Under the pieces are notes generated by a model. It was given only the letters and a program-made list of their open reading frames with translations, did not search any database and was not told where the DNA came from. Positions 1 through 30,007 of a stretch of DNA of 39,388 nucleotides are shown one piece after another. This stretch comes from a virus, in the IMG/VR virus record IMGVR_UViG_3300047652_000012, positions 1 through 39,388 of that record. One strand, written 5' to 3'. Within the stretch, counting starts at the first letter, position 1, and every line of letters starts with the position of its first letter. Both the position numbers and the translations under genes were made by a program.

Positions 1-694
1 GATCAGAATTGATAATGCTCAGCCGCAGCTTAATTGCACGTTCAGTGAGTCCCTCATAGGTGATGCATTTAAATTCAAATGCCACCGGCATAATTTCCTG
101 CGTTTTTGCCTCAACACTTTCCATGAGTGAGCGTTTGCCGCTGAAATCGTTGTCCTCATAGTCGGCTTTCTGGTTGGCCTCAATAGTGATTTTTCGCAGT
201 GCGGCGGCCGATTTTTTGGCATCAATAGCGTCGCCGTTCGAGGCGAAACCGATAATGTATTCCGACCAGTCCTCAATCCATTCGGCTAGTTCTTTTTGCG
301 ATTTCCGCTCGCCGTTAATATTCAATATCGCAGAGAACGGCGCAGTAGCCTTTAATGATAACGACGCGGTATTATCTGCATGCCCGGGAACTTCGATAGT
401 GCCGAGATTAAAAATCGACTCAGCTTTCATTTTTTCAGCATCGATAAAACACCGCGCCCCAATATCCGCGTATCCGGCAGAATATCGGGTAAAATCATCA
501 ATACTGGCCGTGGATAAATTCCCGCGAAAACGGGTCCGTCCGTCGAGAAATTGTTCCAGATTTCTCAGTACCACGCCTTCTGGCACCGCGACGACCGGGG
601 AGAATTGTACATCGGCCAATTTTTCGTTAACTTGCTGGCCTATGACAAGATTACGGATCTGGGTAATAGCGGATGAATCAACAGTCTGTGCCAT
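1..694 (-). CDS. DUF2303 (YfdQ-like) phage protein, 3' end cut by window
   Basis: An uninterrupted leftward frame opens at an ATG at 692-694 and runs off the left edge, giving 231 codons with no stop. An AAGGAA ribosome site lies just upstream on the minus strand. The N-terminus reads [19 protein letters not shown], followed by a stretch containing [13 protein letters not shown] and later [20 protein letters not shown]. This matches my memory of the DUF2303/YfdQ family found in early regions of enterobacterial lambdoid prophages such as CPS-53. The biochemical role of that family is not established; its members sit near recombination genes. It lies downstream of another leftward small gene with a 36-bp gap and is probably the distal part of the leftward early operon. 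The family assignment rests on recall, not on a search. Confidence 0.8.
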
Positions 695-730
695 TATTTT
701 TCCTTAATATGAATAGTTTGAACGGCTGGA

Positions 731-1102
731 TCAGTTGGTGCGGAGCTTGCCGTCAATATCCCCAGTGAGGGTAAGTAGTTGGCCCTGGTCTTTGGGTAAA
801 ATAGTCAGTTCGCCGCCGCGGTTGACATACATTGGGGTCTCAGTCGTGTCTTCTTCCGAGAATTTGCCGCGTGGCGTCGGGCGCACATAAGACATTTTGT
901 GCGTGATCATCACTCGTTTTTCTTCAAGAGATTTGCTGAGACGCGCCACTTTGAATTTGAGCGTGATCTCTCCGGTACTGCCATTATTCAGGACACCCAA
1001 AGCTACTTCATTTAGCGCGCTGGCTATTTTGGTTTCAAATACGCCACCGTCCAGCTCGCCCAGGAAATCAGGGACATTTGTTGCACGATTTGTTTCAGAC
1101 AT
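731..1102 (-). CDS. Small early phage protein (unknown function)
   Basis: This 123-residue protein begins MSETNRATNVPDFLGELDGG. The start at 1102 is chosen because GAGGT lies 5 bases upstream on the minus strand; the upstream extension of the open frame to 1195 reads like non-coding sequence. The protein is hydrophilic, with no signal peptide, membrane segment or Cys/His cluster. It sits immediately upstream of the DUF2303 gene and very likely shares its transcript. This gene pair recurs in enterobacterial prophages (compare yfdP-yfdQ in CPS-53), but I cannot confirm that this is a YfdP homologue. Function unknown. Confidence 0.75.
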   Translation of the reverse strand: MSETNRATNVPDFLGELDGGVFETKIASALNEVALGVLNNGSTGEITLKFKVARLSKSLEEKRVMITHKMSYVRPTPRGKFSEEDTTETPMYVNRGGELTILPKDQGQLLTLTGDIDGKLRTN

Positions 1103-1208
1103 GATTACCTCGCGTAAAAAGGGCGGTCTGCACCAATCAGAACACTGTCTTCTCCCCTTGTAGTGGAAGAATCGGTACAGCCGCCAAGGACTCACACAGC
1201 AAAATCGT

Positions 1209-1248
1209 GCCTGGCTAACTTTTCCACCTCAGGCGGCGGTGGTATCTT
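1209..1248 (+). promoter_or_regulatory. Cassette A: promoter/operator-like repeat upstream of the 1282 gene
   Basis: This is the first of three related copies. It has GCCTGG, then the interrupted palindrome CCACCTCAGGCGGCGGTGG at 1224-1242 (CCACC pairs with GGTGG), then TATCTT at 1243-1248, which can serve as a -10 box. CCACCTCAGG starts 58 bases before the downstream ATG, nearly the same as in the other two copies. A clean -35 box is not obvious; TTTCCA at 1221-1226 is the best candidate. Confidence 0.6.
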
Positions 1249-1281
1249 GGGAGTAACCACACAACCAAGAAGGGAAACTCT

Positions 1282-1728
1282 ATGAGTTCTTATTCCAATC
1301 TCTGGCAGGCCATTTGGCCCGGCGTTTGTGATTTTTACGGTGCCGCACAATACGATTTCGAAAATAATCCTGGCACCGTAAAAGCCTTGCAAGCCAGAGT
1401 TCATTCATATCAATTGCTTTTAGTCGAACTTTTGATACACGAACAAAGAAAGAAATTCGCTACCCCTTTTGAGCCCCTGGACGGCCAAAAGGCTCTTCAC
1501 TATATAGTTTTCAACAAAACACATTGGGAATTACCCAAAATAAGATCACTTAGTCTTCAGGATATTCTTTTCGTTTTACTTGACGATATTCGCCCGGATC
1601 ATCTTCCGGACGAAGCCCAGAAGTATTTAGAAACTCTTCGCATCCCTTCAAATCCTCCAGCAGTCGATTTAACGCAATATTCTGGCTGGCTGATAGGTGA
1701 AGGACAGCGTTATTTGAAAGATCAGTAG
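1282..1728 (+). CDS. Cassette-driven small phage protein (unknown function)
   Basis: A 148-residue protein beginning MSSYSNLWQAIWPGVCDFYG. The start has a GAAGGGAA ribosome site 6-7 bases upstream and lies 58 bases from cassette A. The sequence looks like a folded, mostly helical soluble protein, with a short leucine-rich stretch (QLLLVELLIHEQ) and no signal peptide. I do not recognise the family. It runs opposite to the leftward early genes, and its last 179 bases are antisense to the 3' end of the gene at 1550-1906, so transcription of one could affect the other. It appears to be a single-gene unit with its own promoter. Confidence 0.6.
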   Translation: MSSYSNLWQAIWPGVCDFYGAAQYDFENNPGTVKALQARVHSYQLLLVELLIHEQRKKFATPFEPLDGQKALHYIVFNKTHWELPKIRSLSLQDILFVLLDDIRPDHLPDEAQKYLETLRIPSNPPAVDLTQYSGWLIGEGQRYLKDQ

Positions 1729-1906
1729 TAGTCCCTTTTAAGGTTGCACATGCATTAGATAAATCTCGGGAAGCCCAGCCAATACGTGCCTGTGCTGCCT
1801 GCTGGGCTTTTAGCAATATTAATTGATTTTCTAACCACTCTATTAATTCCCGAGAGCCCAGATTACCGGCGTGAATATATGGCTCTGTTTCAATGTTAGA
1901 ATTCAT
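1550..1906 (-). CDS. Small leftward early protein, 3' end antisense to the 1282 gene
   Basis: A 118-residue protein beginning MNSNIETEPYIHAGNLGSRE. The ATG at 1906 has a strong GAGGTG ribosome site 6 bases upstream on the minus strand, which argues that this is a real gene. The middle is helical and rich in Ala, Leu and Gln (residues about 20-90); the C-terminus is charged. The last 60 residues are encoded antisense to the 1282-1728 gene, so one of the two C-termini may be poorly conserved. No family recognised. It would belong to the leftward early transcript together with the genes at 731 and 1. Confidence 0.5.
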   Translation of the reverse strand: MNSNIETEPYIHAGNLGSRELIEWLENQLILLKAQQAAQARIGWASRDLSNACATLKGTTTDLSNNAVLHLSASQNIALNRLLEDLKGCEEFLNTSGLRPEDDPGEYRQVKRKEYPED

Positions 1907-2185
1907 TTTATCACCTCATTTGTGGTTAGCCGGTTACCCATCGTCCGGCGCCACGCTACGCGGGTGGCGGGTGTGCCTGTTGTAATTCTCCACGGTTTAC
2001 AGGCCATATTGCCGCGGTACTTCTTCGCTCGCTCAGGTGTATAGGTTGCCACCTAACCAGAGGGTGGCGCGGCACGGTGTGACCGGCGTACATGCACCGG
2101 CATGGTTCACAGAGCTATCACGTATTTCCCGGTTTTACGGACCAATGCGGCATCACTCGCTTACCATGCGTTAGCATCTTGGGTG

Positions 2186-2222
2186 GCTGGAGTCGAACCA
2201 GCTGCAGGGGGCGGATAACCCC
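2186..2222 (-). other. tRNA-like double hairpin (T-arm plus anticodon-arm-like)
   Basis: On the minus strand, 2202-2186 folds as a textbook T-arm: 5-bp stem GCTGG/CCAGC closing the 7-base loop TTCGACT, which fits the GTTCRANYC consensus. About five bases upstream, 2222-2208 forms a GGGG/CCCC stem with a 7-base loop TTATCCG, as an anticodon arm would. No pairing acceptor 5' strand or clear D-arm is found and no CCA is encoded, so this is not an intact tRNA gene. It may be a tRNA remnant or a mimic. Confidence 0.35.
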
Positions 2223-2317
2223 AACAATCCCCGGATCACACAATCGGCTGAGCACTGAGGCGATATATAGCGGAGTGGGTTATGGGCCGGCCGCTACCAG
2301 TGCTCATGCGGTTGTGT

Positions 2318-2357
2318 GCCTGATATCACATATCCACCTCAGGCGCAGTGCTATCCT
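2318..2357 (+). promoter_or_regulatory. Cassette B: promoter/operator-like repeat upstream of the 2391 gene
   Basis: This second copy has GCCTGA, TCCACCTCAGGCGCAGTG and TATCCT (2352-2357). CCACCTCAGG begins at 2334, 57 bases before the ATG at 2391. The right palindrome arm is weaker (CAGTG) than in cassettes A and C. After TATCCT the leader resembles that of cassette C (CCTT..AA). Confidence 0.5.
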
Positions 2358-2390
2358 TTTAAAGCCCTTACATTTAAAAAAGGAAAATCA

Positions 2391-2699
2391 ATGCCAGAAT
2401 ATAGAAGCGTCATTGGCATGTTTTGCTATAAAGATGAGGCTCAATATTCGCAATTTTCAAAGCTCTTTACGGATTCAAGCCGACTTCTTGCCACCTTCAG
2501 TGCCTGGAAAGTCAAAGCTGATCGCGGCGTAAAACAACTCAGTAAGAACGGAAATTTGGTTATCCGTGTATATCCTGATAGCACCGAGGAATTCACCACT
2601 TGGTGTCGGATTAACGGTCGTGGTGTCGATTCCAAAGGACGCATGAGTTTCGCTAGTTCCAAGGCTTCCGAGACTCTCAAGACAAGTGCTAATAACTGA
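2391..2699 (+). CDS. Cassette-driven small phage protein (unknown function)
   Basis: A 102-residue protein beginning MPEYRSVIGMFCYKDEAQYS. The start at 2391 is preferred over the upstream ATG at 2316 because AAAAGGAAAA lies just before it and it keeps the 57-base distance from cassette B. The protein is basic and soluble, with two cysteines and no membrane segment. No family recognised. It is transcribed against the leftward early operon, and a weaker minus-strand candidate overlaps most of it. The shared upstream cassette places it in the same regulatory group as the genes at 1282 and 2864. Confidence 0.55.
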   Translation: MPEYRSVIGMFCYKDEAQYSQFSKLFTDSSRLLATFSAWKVKADRGVKQLSKNGNLVIRVYPDSTEEFTTWCRINGRGVDSKGRMSFASSKASETLKTSANN

Positions 2700-2767
2700 A
2701 GGTTTGATAAAGAAATAGTCAATGTTTCCCCACCAGTTGTGATTTCAATTCGCGCCTTCACCATCAT
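2441..2767 (-). CDS. Possible small leftward early protein
   Basis: An open frame of 108 codons begins with two ATGs, and GAGGA lies 6 bases upstream on the minus strand. The first 42 residues (MMVKARIEITTGGETLTISL onward) look like real protein: a beta-like start, then a Leu/Ala helix. The rest is antisense to the 2391 gene and looks like shadow sequence. It could be the first gene of the leftward transcript starting near 3254, or a spurious frame. I keep it because of its good start signal, with low confidence. Confidence 0.3.
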   Translation of the reverse strand: MMVKARIEITTGGETLTISLSNLQLLALVLRVSEALELAKLMRPLESTPRPLIRHQVVNSSVLSGYTRITKFPFLLSCFTPRSALTFQALKVARSRLESVKSFENCEY

Positions 2768-2789
2768 TAATTCCTCATTGTTAATCCTT

Positions 2790-2832
2790 GCCTGGTTTAC
2801 TTTTCCACCTCAGGAGGCGGTGGTGGTATCCT
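2790..2832 (+). promoter_or_regulatory. Cassette C: promoter/operator-like repeat upstream of the 2864 gene
   Basis: The third and clearest copy has GCCTGGTTTACTTTT, the palindrome CCACCTCAGGAGGCGGTGG (2805-2823), an extra TGG and TATCCT (2827-2832). CCACCTCAGG begins 59 bases before the ATG at 2864. It is nearly identical to cassette A over about 35 bases, apart from a 3-base insertion between palindrome and -10-like box. Confidence 0.6.
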
Positions 2833-2863
2833 TGAAGTCCCTACAACTATCAAGGAAATGCAA

Positions 2864-3118
2864 ATGCGCGGAGTCGTCGTATATCATGAACATCACCATG
2901 GTTTAATTGCCATCCACGACGACAGGGATGAATTCGCTGTCGTTGAACTCGTTGGTGGCCAAGTAGTTGAAAGAGGTGATGTCATATCTGGTGATATTGA
3001 AAATCACGGCTCACAAACTTTACTAAATGAAACCAAAAACGAGCAAATTAACGTTTTAATTCAAGGTATTGGAATGACCGAAACTCAGGTTATTCAGATG
3101 CTACAAAACACGCATTAA
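2864..3118 (+). CDS. Cassette-driven small phage protein, beta-rich
   Basis: An 84-residue protein beginning MRGVVVYHEHHHGLIAIHDD. The ATG at 2864 is chosen over 2858 because AAGGAA ends 6 bases before it and the cassette distance then matches the other two genes. The N-terminal 50 residues alternate hydrophobic and polar residues and contain a His run (HEHHH), suggesting a small beta-barrel such as an OB-fold. The end (GIGMTETQVIQMLQNTH) looks like a helix. The OB-fold idea is only an impression; no family is recognised. It stands alone on the plus strand, upstream of and facing the CI gene's 3' end. Confidence 0.6.
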   Translation: MRGVVVYHEHHHGLIAIHDDRDEFAVVELVGGQVVERGDVISGDIENHGSQTLLNETKNEQINVLIQGIGMTETQVIQMLQNTH

Positions 3119-3260
3119 TCCACCCACGGAAAACATCACAATCTTTCAAAATCTACTGGCACTACTCAGCTGAAATAATTTTTCCGGGTCCCATTTGTAG
3201 CTCTGGTTCTGCGGCGAAGTTATTTCCTCTGTTTGTTGCCTGTTCGCTGTTGGTAAAATT

Positions 3261-3289
3261 AGTTTATTAAATACTAAACACTTAGGCAA
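3261..3289 (-). promoter_or_regulatory. Leftward early promoter (PL-like) with repressor operator
   Basis: On the minus strand TTGCCT (3289-3284) and TAAACT (3266-3261) are 17 bases apart. The -10 overlaps an operator-like near-palindrome GTTTATTAAATACTAAAC (3262-3279). The 19-base string at 3261-3279 occurs again, perfectly inverted, at 4053-4071 over the Cro-side promoter, which has the same 17-base spacing and the same TAAACT. A further inverted repeat, AAAGTGAA (3294-3301) and TTCACTTT (3315-3322), lies just upstream. This is the expected position for OL/PL in a lambda-type switch. Confidence 0.65.
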
Positions 3290-3373
3290 GTAAAAAGTGA
3301 ACAAATTATAAGTATTCACTTTATTGAATTGATAAGTAAGGTTTTAAAGGGACTTTGAGGGGGAATTGTCAAC

Positions 3374-4003
3374 TCAAATAAAACGAACTTTAGCCTCAAC
3401 AACGACACCAACGATCTTGCAATTGCCATTGATGGTTTGCATTTTATAGTCAGGATTCAATGGTTTAAGATATTTCTGGCCAGCGTCAATAACCAGCTTT
3501 TTGAACGTGGCTTCATTTTCGTTAACTAGTTTGGCGACAACTAAGCTTCCGTTTATCGGTTCTCGCTCCGGGTCGACAAGAATCAGCATACCTTCGGGTA
3601 CGCTCTGACCCGAGGGTGATGTCATCGAATCACCTTTGACTGTGAGCCAAAAAGACTTATCACTGACTTTTTCGGTGGTTTCTGGCCAGTCTTCAATTTC
3701 ACTCAATCGGTAAGGTTCTATCGCTTCGTGCCAGGCACCAGCACTCACCCAACTAATCAGCGGGTAACTCCCTGAAACATGATGACTAGATGCATAGGCC
3801 ACATTACTCGTTTCCGCATCAAGTTTGGTATCAAGGCTACCTATCGGCATGCCGTAATCCAGTTCCAATCTGCGTGCAGCCCGTTCTCCGAAAGACCCCT
3901 TCCCATTAATGAGCTGAGATAGATAACTCTTCTCTTTTTCCGGCAAAGTCTTATTCGCAAACCAGTCTTTTAGGCGGATACGCCTGATCTCTTTTATATC
4001 CAT
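3374..4003 (-). CDS. CI-like phage repressor (S24 peptidase type)
   Basis: A 209-residue repressor. Residues 1-55 form a short DNA-binding part (SYLSQLINGKGSFGERAARR resembles a helix-turn-helix). The second half is a LexA/CI-type self-cleavage domain: Ala-Gly scissile site at 89-90 (VSAGAW), nucleophile Ser126 in GDSM and general base Lys168 in TFKKL. By analogy it keeps the prophage silent by binding operators on both sides of its gene, and is inactivated by RecA-stimulated self-cleavage after DNA damage. AGGGA precedes the ATG. The divergent gene at 4097 is the Cro counterpart. Domain architecture is clear; cognate operators are inferred from the inverted repeats at 3262-3279, 4015-4032 and 4053-4070. 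Confidence 0.92.
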   Translation of the reverse strand: MDIKEIRRIRLKDWFANKTLPEKEKSYLSQLINGKGSFGERAARRLELDYGMPIGSLDTKLDAETSNVAYASSHHVSGSYPLISWVSAGAWHEAIEPYRLSEIEDWPETTEKVSDKSFWLTVKGDSMTSPSGQSVPEGMLILVDPEREPINGSLVVAKLVNENEATFKKLVIDAGQKYLKPLNPDYKMQTINGNCKIVGVVVEAKVRFI

Positions 4004-4014
4004 TTCCCTATTGT

Positions 4015-4071
4015 GATTAGTAAAAGCTAAACAAGCAAATACTTGACGTTAAGTTTAGTATTTAATAAACT
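4015..4071 (+). promoter_or_regulatory. Rightward early promoter (PR-like) with operators
   Basis: TTGACG (4043-4048) and TAAACT (4066-4071) are 17 bases apart, a good sigma70 promoter for the Cro-side operon. The -10 overlaps operator-like GTTTAGTATTTAATAAAC (4053-4070), the exact inverse of the sequence at the PL side. A diverged third copy, GATTAGTAAAAGCTAAAC (4015-4032), lies just upstream of the CI start codon. ACTTGACGTTAAGT (4042-4055), a near-palindrome, covers the -35. This arrangement resembles OR1/OR3 around PR and PRM. Confidence 0.65.
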
Positions 4072-4096
4072 CACCTTTTAAATTATGAGGTGGCTT

Positions 4097-4330
4097 ATGA
4101 ATCTTAAAGACTACATCGAACAGCTTGAGCGAGGTGGTGTGAAAACTCTGGCTGATGCGATCGGCGTATCCAGTTCGTACCTTTCTCAGATGGCTTCAGG
4201 TCGTTGTCACATTTCGCCGGCCCGCTGTGTCGTTATCGAACAAGCAACGAGTGGCAAGGTTAGCCGTAAAGAATTACGACCAACTGACTGGATGAATATC
4301 TGGCCTGAACTCGTTTCAGATAAATCATAA
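4097..4330 (+). CDS. Cro-like regulator of the YdaS type
   Basis: A 77-residue protein beginning MNLKDYIEQLERGGVKTLAD. The ATG at 4097 is chosen over 4085 because GAGGTGG sits 4-5 bases upstream and the first ATG overlaps the ribosome site. Residues about 16-40 form a helix-turn-helix (TLADAIGVSSSYLSQMASGR) followed by the usual ISPARCVVIEQAT segment of YdaS/Cro-like proteins. It is divergent from the CI gene and first in the rightward early operon, the position of Cro. Its expected role is to bind the switch operators and favour lytic growth. Confidence 0.85.
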   Translation: MNLKDYIEQLERGGVKTLADAIGVSSSYLSQMASGRCHISPARCVVIEQATSGKVSRKELRPTDWMNIWPELVSDKS

Positions 4331-4370
4331 CAAAATAGCGAAGTAAACAAACTACCAAAGGGAAATCAAC

Positions 4371-4883
4371 ATGGTAGGCATAAAACACACTATCAAATTG
4401 ATGTGCCGCGCGTTCCCCGGCGGGCGATCCGCTTTAGCGGCAGCGCTGGGCATGGAACTCGAAACTTTTACCAACAATCTCTACGAAAAAAACGGTTGCC
4501 GGTTCTTTGAGATTGAGGAATTGGAAGCAATGGAAGACCTGACCGGCACAACACTACTGGCCGAATATTTTGCACGGCGCCGTGGTGGCATGTATGTCGA
4601 CATCCCCAAGTTTGAAGAATTGGACCAAGTAGAGCTTTTCCAGCGCGGTGTAATGGCTGGTGCTGAACGGGGTCGGGTGGACTTGATTATTCAGGAGGCG
4701 ATTAAGGACGGTTTTATCGACGAGAGCGAGGCGGCCGAAATCGAAGCGCACCACATTAAACATTTGGCGGCGCGTGAGGCCGAAGTACGAGCCATTTTAG
4801 CGCTATTTAGCCGCAAAAAAGTTGAGACCCAGGAGTCTGAAGCTCCCAGGCCTCGATGCGCACATATCAGTGGAGATAAATAA
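4371..4883 (+). CDS. CII/YmfL-like phage regulator
   Basis: A 170-residue protein directly after the Cro-like gene, the position of cII in lambdoid phages. The N-terminal half (TIKLMCRAFPGGRSALAAAL, then NLYEKNGCRFFEIEELEAM) matches the phage regulatory family that includes YmfL and Phage_CP76/CII proteins. The C-terminal half is charged and helical (about 100-150). It is probably a DNA-binding regulator of lysogeny or replication timing. GGGAAATCAAC lies before the ATG. Which promoter it acts on is not visible. Confidence 0.75.
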   Translation: MVGIKHTIKLMCRAFPGGRSALAAALGMELETFTNNLYEKNGCRFFEIEELEAMEDLTGTTLLAEYFARRRGGMYVDIPKFEELDQVELFQRGVMAGAERGRVDLIIQEAIKDGFIDESEAAEIEAHHIKHLAAREAEVRAILALFSRKKVETQESEAPRPRCAHISGDK

Positions 4884-4886
4884 CGC

Positions 4887-5090
4887 ATGGATAGTTTAAC
4901 CAATAAAGCGGGTTTCCCGCAAATGCGTTGTAAGGCTATTGCTGGCGGCGCTATTCCGGCAGCGTTTTCGTATGAGGTCAGGGTAATGGATCGGTGGATC
5001 CCGAGCAATTATCAATTTGCCCGCTGGGTATTAGACGGCGGCCGGTGGCTGGTTCGCCAAAGGAATTCAGGGATAAGTTTACGAGGCTAG
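4887..5090 (+). CDS. Small early phage protein (unknown function)
   Basis: A 67-residue protein beginning MDSLTNKAGFPQMRCKAIAG. The start 3 bases after the previous stop and the run into the replication gene (1-bp gap) argue for a translated member of the early operon. GGAG lies about 11 bases upstream, a weak ribosome site, so translational coupling is likely. The C-terminal half (MDRWIPSNYQFARWVLDGGR) is aromatic-rich and could be a small folded domain. No family recognised. Confidence 0.6.
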   Translation: MDSLTNKAGFPQMRCKAIAGGAIPAAFSYEVRVMDRWIPSNYQFARWVLDGGRWLVRQRNSGISLRG

Positions 5091-29239: not shown

Positions 29240-30007
29240 ATGGCAATTAATGCAGATCTCCAACAACTGGAGCCGGGCAACTGCGTCCGTTTATTTGAAG
29301 TCGACGGGACGAAATTCGGTGCCGATGTGCTCCGGTTCCATAATCACACCATTCCCTATACTCAAGCCGAGATCGAACAACTGCAAACTGACGGCAATCC
29401 GATCGAAGCGGGCGCACCCTATGGCAAACCCATTTGGTGGCAGGGTGTGGAATACGGCGCGTGGCCGGTAGAAGTGTCTGATCTGGAAATGTCGACCGAC
29501 GGGCAGGCGGCAACACCGAAAATCACCGTGGCCAATCTTAATGGGCTAATTACCGCGTTGTGCCTTCAGTTTGAGGATATGGCCCAGGCGAAAGTTATCA
29601 TTCACGATACGTTCAGCCATTATCTGGATGCGGCCAATTTTCCTGCCGGCAACGCCGAGGCCGATCCGGAACAGGAAAAGCTGCAGGTCTGGTATATCGA
29701 CCGCAAATCCAGTGAGGATGACGAAACCGTCGAATTCGAGCTGGCCAGCCCGGCGGATCTGCGCGGGCAGAAAATCCCGACCCGCCAGATTACCTCTTTA
29801 TGCACCTGGTGCGCTCGTGGCTGGTACCGGACTGGCAATGGTTGCGATTACGCCGGTACCGCCTATTTCGACAAAAACGGCAACCCGGTTAGCGATCCGA
29901 GCCTGGACGTTTGCGGCGGACTCATGCCGGACTGTAAAAAACGTTATGGCGAAAATAACCCGCTGTCGTTCGGCGGTTTTCCCGGCTCCAGTTTAATCAG
30001 CCAATAA
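29240..30007 (+). CDS. Minor tail protein L-like (iron-sulfur tip protein)
   Basis: A 255-residue gpL-family protein. N-terminal QQLEPGNCVRLFEVDGTKFG and middle LEMSTDGQAATPKITVANLN are typical. The C-terminal third has a cluster of cysteines (CTWCARGWY, GCDYAG, DVCGG, DCKKRYG, about residues 188-236) that in lambda gpL binds a 4Fe-4S cluster. It forms part of the tail tip. It is followed 2 bases later by the K-like gene. Confidence 0.92.
   Translation: MAINADLQQLEPGNCVRLFEVDGTKFGADVLRFHNHTIPYTQAEIEQLQTDGNPIEAGAPYGKPIWWQGVEYGAWPVEVSDLEMSTDGQAATPKITVANLNGLITALCLQFEDMAQAKVIIHDTFSHYLDAANFPAGNAEADPEQEKLQVWYIDRKSSEDDETVEFELASPADLRGQKIPTRQITSLCTWCARGWYRTGNGCDYAGTAYFDKNGNPVSDPSLDVCGGLMPDCKKRYGENNPLSFGGFPGSSLISQ

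Follow-up and report, generated by a model that had tools for sequence, protein, structure and literature searches.

To our knowledge, the sas RNA of phage P22 has been regarded since 1993 as the regulator of a sole gene, sieB, a superinfection-exclusion gene that it silences; it is said to have been described at the sieB/esc locus by Ranade and Poteete in that year (Genes Dev 7:1498). In an RNA-seq study, sas is a 127-nt RNA of the minus strand that occurs only in infected cells (PMC13397905), and two reviews report that it acts on the translation of sieB (PMC12197685; PMC7067206). The published RNA is the exact reverse complement of P22 positions 29636-29762, a stretch which comprises the helices P1, P2, P3, and P4 through the start codon/codon 2 of sieB. 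In the P22 sieB record the annotated promoter is TGTACCCCTACAGCGAGAAATCGGATAAACT, and the RNA start falls at the second ACCCCTACAG, within the second loop.

Three repeats occur in the window, the whole stretch of 39,388 nucleotides analyzed here (IMG/VR record IMGVR_UViG_3300047652_000012), and their coordinates are given in Table 1. The first-pass annotation had described a promoter/operator unit in three copies, each ahead of one small gene. The units indeed start at 1209, 2318, and 2790, a covariance model detected no further copy in the 39 kb, and CCACCTCAGG is found at 1224, 2334, and 2805, which puts it 58, 57, and 59 bases ahead of the start codons at 1282, 2391, and 2864. The exact core TCCACCTCAGG has three occurrences in the whole record. 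Units 1 and 3 preserve the 19-bp palindrome proposed as common to all units, and unit 2 has a degenerate version, CCACCTCAGGCGCAGTGC; the 19-mer CCACCTCAGGNGGCGGTGG, with up to three mismatches allowed, matches units 1 and 3 only (chance expectation 0.01). The covariance model, R1, was built from 18 relatives, unit 1 among them, with neither P22 nor lambda sequence in the input, and its E-values are rough. On the window it returned the three units and nothing else. Variants resembling element 2, of the type GGCAGTGC, occur at two other loci (L007 and L089), and the P2 helix of this unit is weak. Positions 1916-2317 form about 400 bp with no clear gene and contain a long imperfect inverted repeat (CACACAATCGGCTGAGCACTG ... 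CAGTGCTCATGCGGTTGTGTG) that ends immediately ahead of element 2; in many relatives, too, the element is preceded by repeats of this kind, whose differences are compensatory. A hairpin resembling a tRNA T-arm lies near 2185, and the tRNA-like hairpins near 2190 were ruled out as a tRNA, since ARAGORN calls none.

Table 1. Observed and predicted features of the window (positions from its first letter; CM, covariance model R1)
Feature	Positions	Strand	Details
phrog_204 gene	731..1102	-	first recognized leftward early gene after element 1
Element 1, class A	1209..1276	-	CM E=9e-23; covariation across relatives; minus-strand wobble bias
Element 1, P1 arms	1209-1213/1230-1234		GCCTG/CAGGC
Element 1, P2 arms	1224-1228/1238-1242		CCACC/GGTGG
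Element 1, P3 arms	1245-1250/1265-1270		TCTTGG/CCAAGA
Gene 1 putative extended -10, TGG-TATCTT	1240..1248	+	predicted start near 1255, predicted mRNA 5' end AACCACACAACCAAGAAGGG; conserved motif and P22 analogy
Gene 1	1282..1728	+	148 aa; ECs1072 family phage protein NF033230 (NCBIfam E=5.8e-41); phrog_5286
Candidate leftward ORF	1550..1906	-	overlaps gene 1 3' end
Element 2, most diverged	2318..2385	-	CM E=6.6e-6
Element 2, P1 arms	2318-2322/2340-2344		
Element 2, P2 arms			shrunk to CAC/GTG
Element 2, P3 arms			TCCTTTT/AAAAGGA
Gene 2 putative extended -10, TGC-TATCCT	2349..2357	+	predicted start near 2364
Gene 2	2391..2699	+	102 aa; phrog_4753
Candidate leftward ORF	2441..2767	-	begins 23 bp past element 3, overlaps gene 2 end
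Element 3	2790..2858	-	CM E=2.9e-11
Element 3, P1 arms	from 2790		3' arm with 3-base insertion
Element 3, P2 arms	2805-2809/2819-2823		
Element 3, P3 arms			TCCTTG/CAAGGA
Gene 3 putative extended -10, TGG-TATCCT	2824..2832	+	predicted start near 2839, predicted mRNA 5' end CCCTACAACTATCAAGGAAATG
Gene 3	2864..3118	+	84 aa
Predicted PL, TTGCCT-17-TAAACT	3261..3289	-	overlaps operator GTTTAGTATTTAATAAAC (3262-3279)
CI/LexA-type repressor (Peptidase S24)	3374..4003	-	
Predicted PR, TTGACG-17-TAAACT	4043..4071	+	same operator at 4053-4070

Beyond the window, the core pattern alone matched 111 IMG/VR stretches, all but about six of which share one layout (GCCTGRTTACTTYT-CCACC-T-CAGGC-GGC-GGTGG-TATNYT-hairpin-SD-ATG), and R1 gave 121 matches from 100 sources. 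Hosts and phages that could be named include Xenorhabdus, Yersinia, Ewingella, Serratia, Proteus, Edwardsiella, Rahnella, and Aeromonas phage pAEv1818. The distance from the element to the sense ATG is fixed among relatives, and the downstream proteins, mostly of 40-190 aa, fall into at least 31 families with no detectable mutual similarity; the guess that related phages would carry the element ahead of small orphan genes was thus borne out. By comparison of these loci, the element is a large covarying family, with dozens of unrelated small genes behind it in phages of gut bacteria and their relatives. Neighboring ORFs run in the opposite orientation in 55 cases vs. the same in 31, by a crude ORF rule. 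Apparently decayed cassettes were also seen, in which P1 is intact, P2 is mutated, and P3 and the gene are missing (L144, L147, L154, and L155).

Two classes can be distinguished. Class A, with at least 100 loci in IMG/VR, has TATNYT located between P2 and P3, directly after P2. In class B, whose counts are those among the matches listed, the C-rich motif occurs twice, mostly with 34 bp between copies and the -10 in between; the two copies co-vary (0/5000 shuffles, a count that ignores kinship), and P1/P2 lie upstream in 228 of the 234 double-motif matches listed (202 by script, the rest by eye). Members of class B stand ahead of sieB and include the annotated promoter of P22 sieB. R1 matched sieB of P22 (1.6e-6) and of lambda (9.5e-7) in 23.5 kb, as well as ymfI of the E. 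coli e14 prophage (1.3e-14), and also finds the HK140 and SfIV copies; in phages P1 and P4 it gave only chance-level matches (E about 0.8-1.3). The HK140 class B element has matches in 1,772 of 5,426 E. coli genomes. A megablast search of E. coli with the Yersinia-type class A element gave no match, a result that, in view of the HK140 matches, reflects the limit of sensitivity.

Among the genes of the window, relatives of gene 2 (L050) and gene 3 (L019 and L134) were found behind the element at other loci. The gene 3 protein has no match in Pfam, NCBIfam, or PHROG, and the two candidate leftward ORFs likewise have no family match in these collections; their overlap with the 3' ends of genes 1 and 2 resembles that of ymfJ over ymfI in e14. 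Positions 4085-4883 carry a YdaS-like gene in the Cro position and a YmfL/CII-type regulator, as in an e14-like immunity region. An ECs1072-like gene is present in ST64B; the moron STMMW_20121 of this phage is independently transcribed according to PMC7067206, and its promoter looks unlike that of the element. SieB is the sole downstream family with an established role. A search of Pfam/PHROGs and PADLOC for known defense families among the downstream proteins, SieB aside, gave only weak PADLOC matches (best 1e-4), and exclusion or defense roles for the other genes are a guess by association. Small zinc-ribbon proteins of the ECs_2282 family, weakly Lar-like, stand behind the element at four loci (L074 9006, L101 440, L148 957, and L363) and are possible anti-restriction genes. 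Nominally unrelated downstream proteins of seven loci (L045, L094, L011, L016, L028, L032, and L139) have in common a short helical L-T/S-x-E-Q pattern, and may be one very diverged superfamily.

The proposal that TATCYT acts as a -10 box is well supported by the alignment: a TG is kept at the extended -10 position, and the T, the A, and the last T are nearly invariant amid varying neighbors in a stem, with TATCTT, TATCCT, TATTCT, TATACT, TATGCT, TAATCT, and TATCAT as the hexamers in 70 elements. This conservation strongly suggests that the element is a plus-strand promoter of the sigma-70 type with an extended -10, TGG-TATNYT. With regard to the -35, a consensus scan does not call the element a promoter, and the annotated start is that of P22 only.

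Compensatory changes are found in each of the three helices P1 (GCCTG/CAGGC), P2 (CCACC/GGTGG), and P3, of which the second is interlocked with the first and the third encloses the C-rich motif. In the 121 matches, 11 of 13 pairs vary on both sides with pairing kept, the covariation score is 0.233 vs. 0.075 in shuffled alignments (0/500), and 96% of paired cells can pair vs. at most 59% in slid controls. Compensatory variants include GCCCG/CGGGC, GCCGGG/CCCGGC, and GCUGGG/CCCAGC for P1, and CCACG/CGUGG, CCACA/UGUGG, CCUC/GAGG, and CCGC/GCGG for P2, which pairs with its own partner in 80 of 89 cores vs. 61 +/- 2.4 after partner swap. Since the joining segments have only 0-3 nt, the geometry suggests that P1 and P2 are probably alternative helices rather than simultaneous ones. 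Mismatches in the stems, read on the plus strand, are A.C in 33 cases vs. G.T in 5 (from the covariance-model alignment, in a count that ignores relatedness), and 17 vs. 3 when P1 and P3 were counted again in a neutral way. An A.C on the plus strand is a G.U on the minus strand, thus identifying the minus strand as the paired one; the sixth P1 position is often a plus-strand G.T and points in the opposite direction if that position pairs. The minus strand also folds better in 81 of 99 elements, to which composition contributes, and single-sequence folds of the antisense strands of the window show no unusual stability (z -0.4 to -1.1). Judged by the compensatory changes and the minus-strand wobble bias together, the helices form on the antisense strand.

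These observations bear on the other ways in which the repeats could be read. Binding of a phage or host regulator to the C-rich motif and the palindromes near -34 and +1, as protein operators of one regulon, would fit the presence in class B of that motif at both -34 and +1, its near-fixed 34-bp spacing and co-variation, and a promoter lying within the element. It is nevertheless unlikely: the three inverted repeats change their arms freely and compensatorily, which sequence-specific protein sites do not, the mismatches are biased toward minus-strand wobble, and a stable RNA is known from exactly this stretch of P22 (PMC13397905). The shared operator for CI, Cro, or YmfL considered in the first-pass annotation had to be given up on the same variation of the arms and minus-strand pairing of the tolerated mismatches, and the palindrome taken there for a protein site is, in P22, part of the template of the sas antisense RNA. 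Matches to the phage's own OL/OR site, GTTTAGTATTTAATAAAC, are confined to 3262 and 4053, outside the elements; these two identical 18-bp copies lie on either side of the CI gene (0.05 matches expected).

A leader of the sense strand, riboswitch-like or translational, with P1/P2 as a sensor and the Shine-Dalgarno sequence hidden by P3, was an earlier working model, dropped on the P22 RNA start and the wobble bias. The 3' arm of P3 does contain the Shine-Dalgarno sequence and covaries, and P1/P2 look mutually exclusive. The RNA start of P22 sieB inside the element, however, would leave the mRNA with neither P1 nor P2 nor the hairpin's 5' arm, the -10 hexamer sits between P2 and P3, and the wobble bias favors the other strand, so that such a leader is very unlikely. 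A sense pairing of L1 with the SD was tried separately and rejected (-3.05 vs. -2.65 kcal/mol in swapped pairs; likely relatedness). Scarcely probable at all is a structure serving the leftward transcript itself, by HK022 put-like antitermination or RNA processing, with the sense effect secondary. The parts of the PL operon in which the elements lie are indeed long, antisense, and for the most part untranslated, and in the leftward operon an rrn-like boxA (CGCTCTTTAACAA, minus strand) stands upstream of, and close to, five copies (L001, L022, L026, L068, and L074); none was seen in positions 1-4400 of the window. Against this role stand the fixed distance of the elements from sense start codons, their occurrence also in lambda and P22, which use N/nut, and the P22 role in sieB translation reported in PMC12197685.

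The reading we prefer, and hold to be probable, is that of a two-faced element of the P22 sieB/sas type, with PL-borne antisense RNAs that shut the small genes. By analogy with P22, each repeat is very probably the promoter of a gene in one direction and the source of a sas-like antisense RNA in the other; that the antisense RNAs of the window are made and repress is inferred from the same analogy. The mRNA would have a C-rich 5' end (CCCUACAAC or CUCACACAAC) and start some 28-31 nt ahead of the ATG. The minus-strand RNA would consist of the hairpin P3' (two such hairpins in class B) followed by the overlapping P2'/P1' helices; the sense mRNA would find the complement of its 5' end in the P3' loop, and its Shine-Dalgarno sequence would be covered by the arm next to that loop. 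In IS10, the loop of the antisense hairpin, RNA-OUT, is complementary to the extreme 5' end of the mRNA, RNA-IN, which starts within the loop region. Likewise, pairing here would begin between loop and 5' tail and lead to a block of translation. The mRNA would hold the loop complement and the SD and lack the other arm, the antisense RNA holding the entire hairpin, an arrangement that would account at once for the strand bias, the free variation of the stem, and the conservation of the 5' end. In class B, where the upstream copy of the motif co-varies with that at the mRNA start, the antisense RNA would have two matching loops.

With regard to regulation, the PL transcript would run antisense through cassettes 3, 2, and 1, ahead of the leftward gene that begins at 1102, and the shared control of the three is most likely this early transcript, with one antisense RNA per cassette. 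With PL on, minus-strand RNA would be expected at 2772-2866, 2300-2393, and about 1190-1284, the last of which would be the antisense RNA of element 1 by analogy with P22 sas. In a lysogen, CI repression would keep PL off and the three small genes on; upon infection or induction, PL would be on and the sas-like RNAs would turn the genes off. The suggestion that the three genes are regulated together and on in the lysogen is very likely, and the promoter and regulon idea of the first-pass annotation was right. Pairing energies of the three antisense RNAs are -45 to -54 kcal/mol with their own leaders and -13 to -19 with foreign ones, a difference that leads one to expect that, within this phage, the RNAs act mostly in cis. 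A search of the window for separate trans antisense RNAs complementary to the conserved loops gave no excess of matches.

More tentatively, with the balance somewhat against it, the element could be a portable cassette for lysogeny-only expression of exclusion or defense genes in temperate phages of Enterobacterales and relatives, and an infecting phage might silence the exclusion genes of a resident prophage in trans. Such silencing by the leftward transcript is suggested by the C-rich motif common to antisense loops and mRNA 5' ends; if true, it would constitute a device of self-protection and counter-exclusion, and the element would be a sequence tag for unknown anti-phage genes. If the sieB logic is general, the element marks small genes that must stay off in lytic growth, likely ones for exclusion or defense, and offers a simple rule for the time of their expression. 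Its presence in lambda and in E. coli e14 makes these ideas testable at once.

Among known systems, no match to Rfam was found in the window, including E-values up to 5 on bases 1-5000, and sas and the elements of P22, lambda, HK140, SfIV, and e14 are not represented in that database. C4 (RF01695, from P1/P4) and isrK (RF01394) are likewise phage antisense or regulatory RNAs, encoded in immunity regions, that control small phage genes; C4, isrK, and the P4 CI RNA were rejected as the identity of the elements, the P1 and P4 controls matching Rfam and the window not. IS10 RNA-OUT/RNA-IN shares the complementarity of loop and mRNA 5' end, with no known sequence relation; the antisense RNA of the element differs in riding on a phage early transcript and in its added P2'/P1' domain. 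The e14 layout ymfH(-)/element/ymfI(+)/ymfJ(-) is that of the window, down to the candidate leftward ORF over the end of gene 2; the region upstream of ymfI carries a class A element, that upstream of lambda sieB one of class B, and the literature searched yielded nothing on antisense control of ymfI. The closest likeness is to P22 sas, which has the same P1/P2/P3 helices in the same order, as found by a model trained without P22. Both in P22 and in the window, the promoter lies inside the element, and in the leftward early region the element covers, in antisense, the start of a small sense gene, 5' end and start codon included, all three units of the window being placed over SD and AUG; the step from P22 to this phage is by homology. 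The targets differ, being sieB/esc in P22, with a nested Esc-like product, and in the window the ECs1072 family, phrog_4753, and the gene 3 protein. In class A the C-rich motif occurs once, where the mRNA is predicted to begin, and the -10 comes right after P2, whereas P22, of class B, has two copies with the -10 between them, and, unlike P22, this one phage carries three copies. The comparison widens sas from a one-gene regulator to a family of wide occurrence that includes a compact form, class A, and is attached to at least 31 unrelated small genes.
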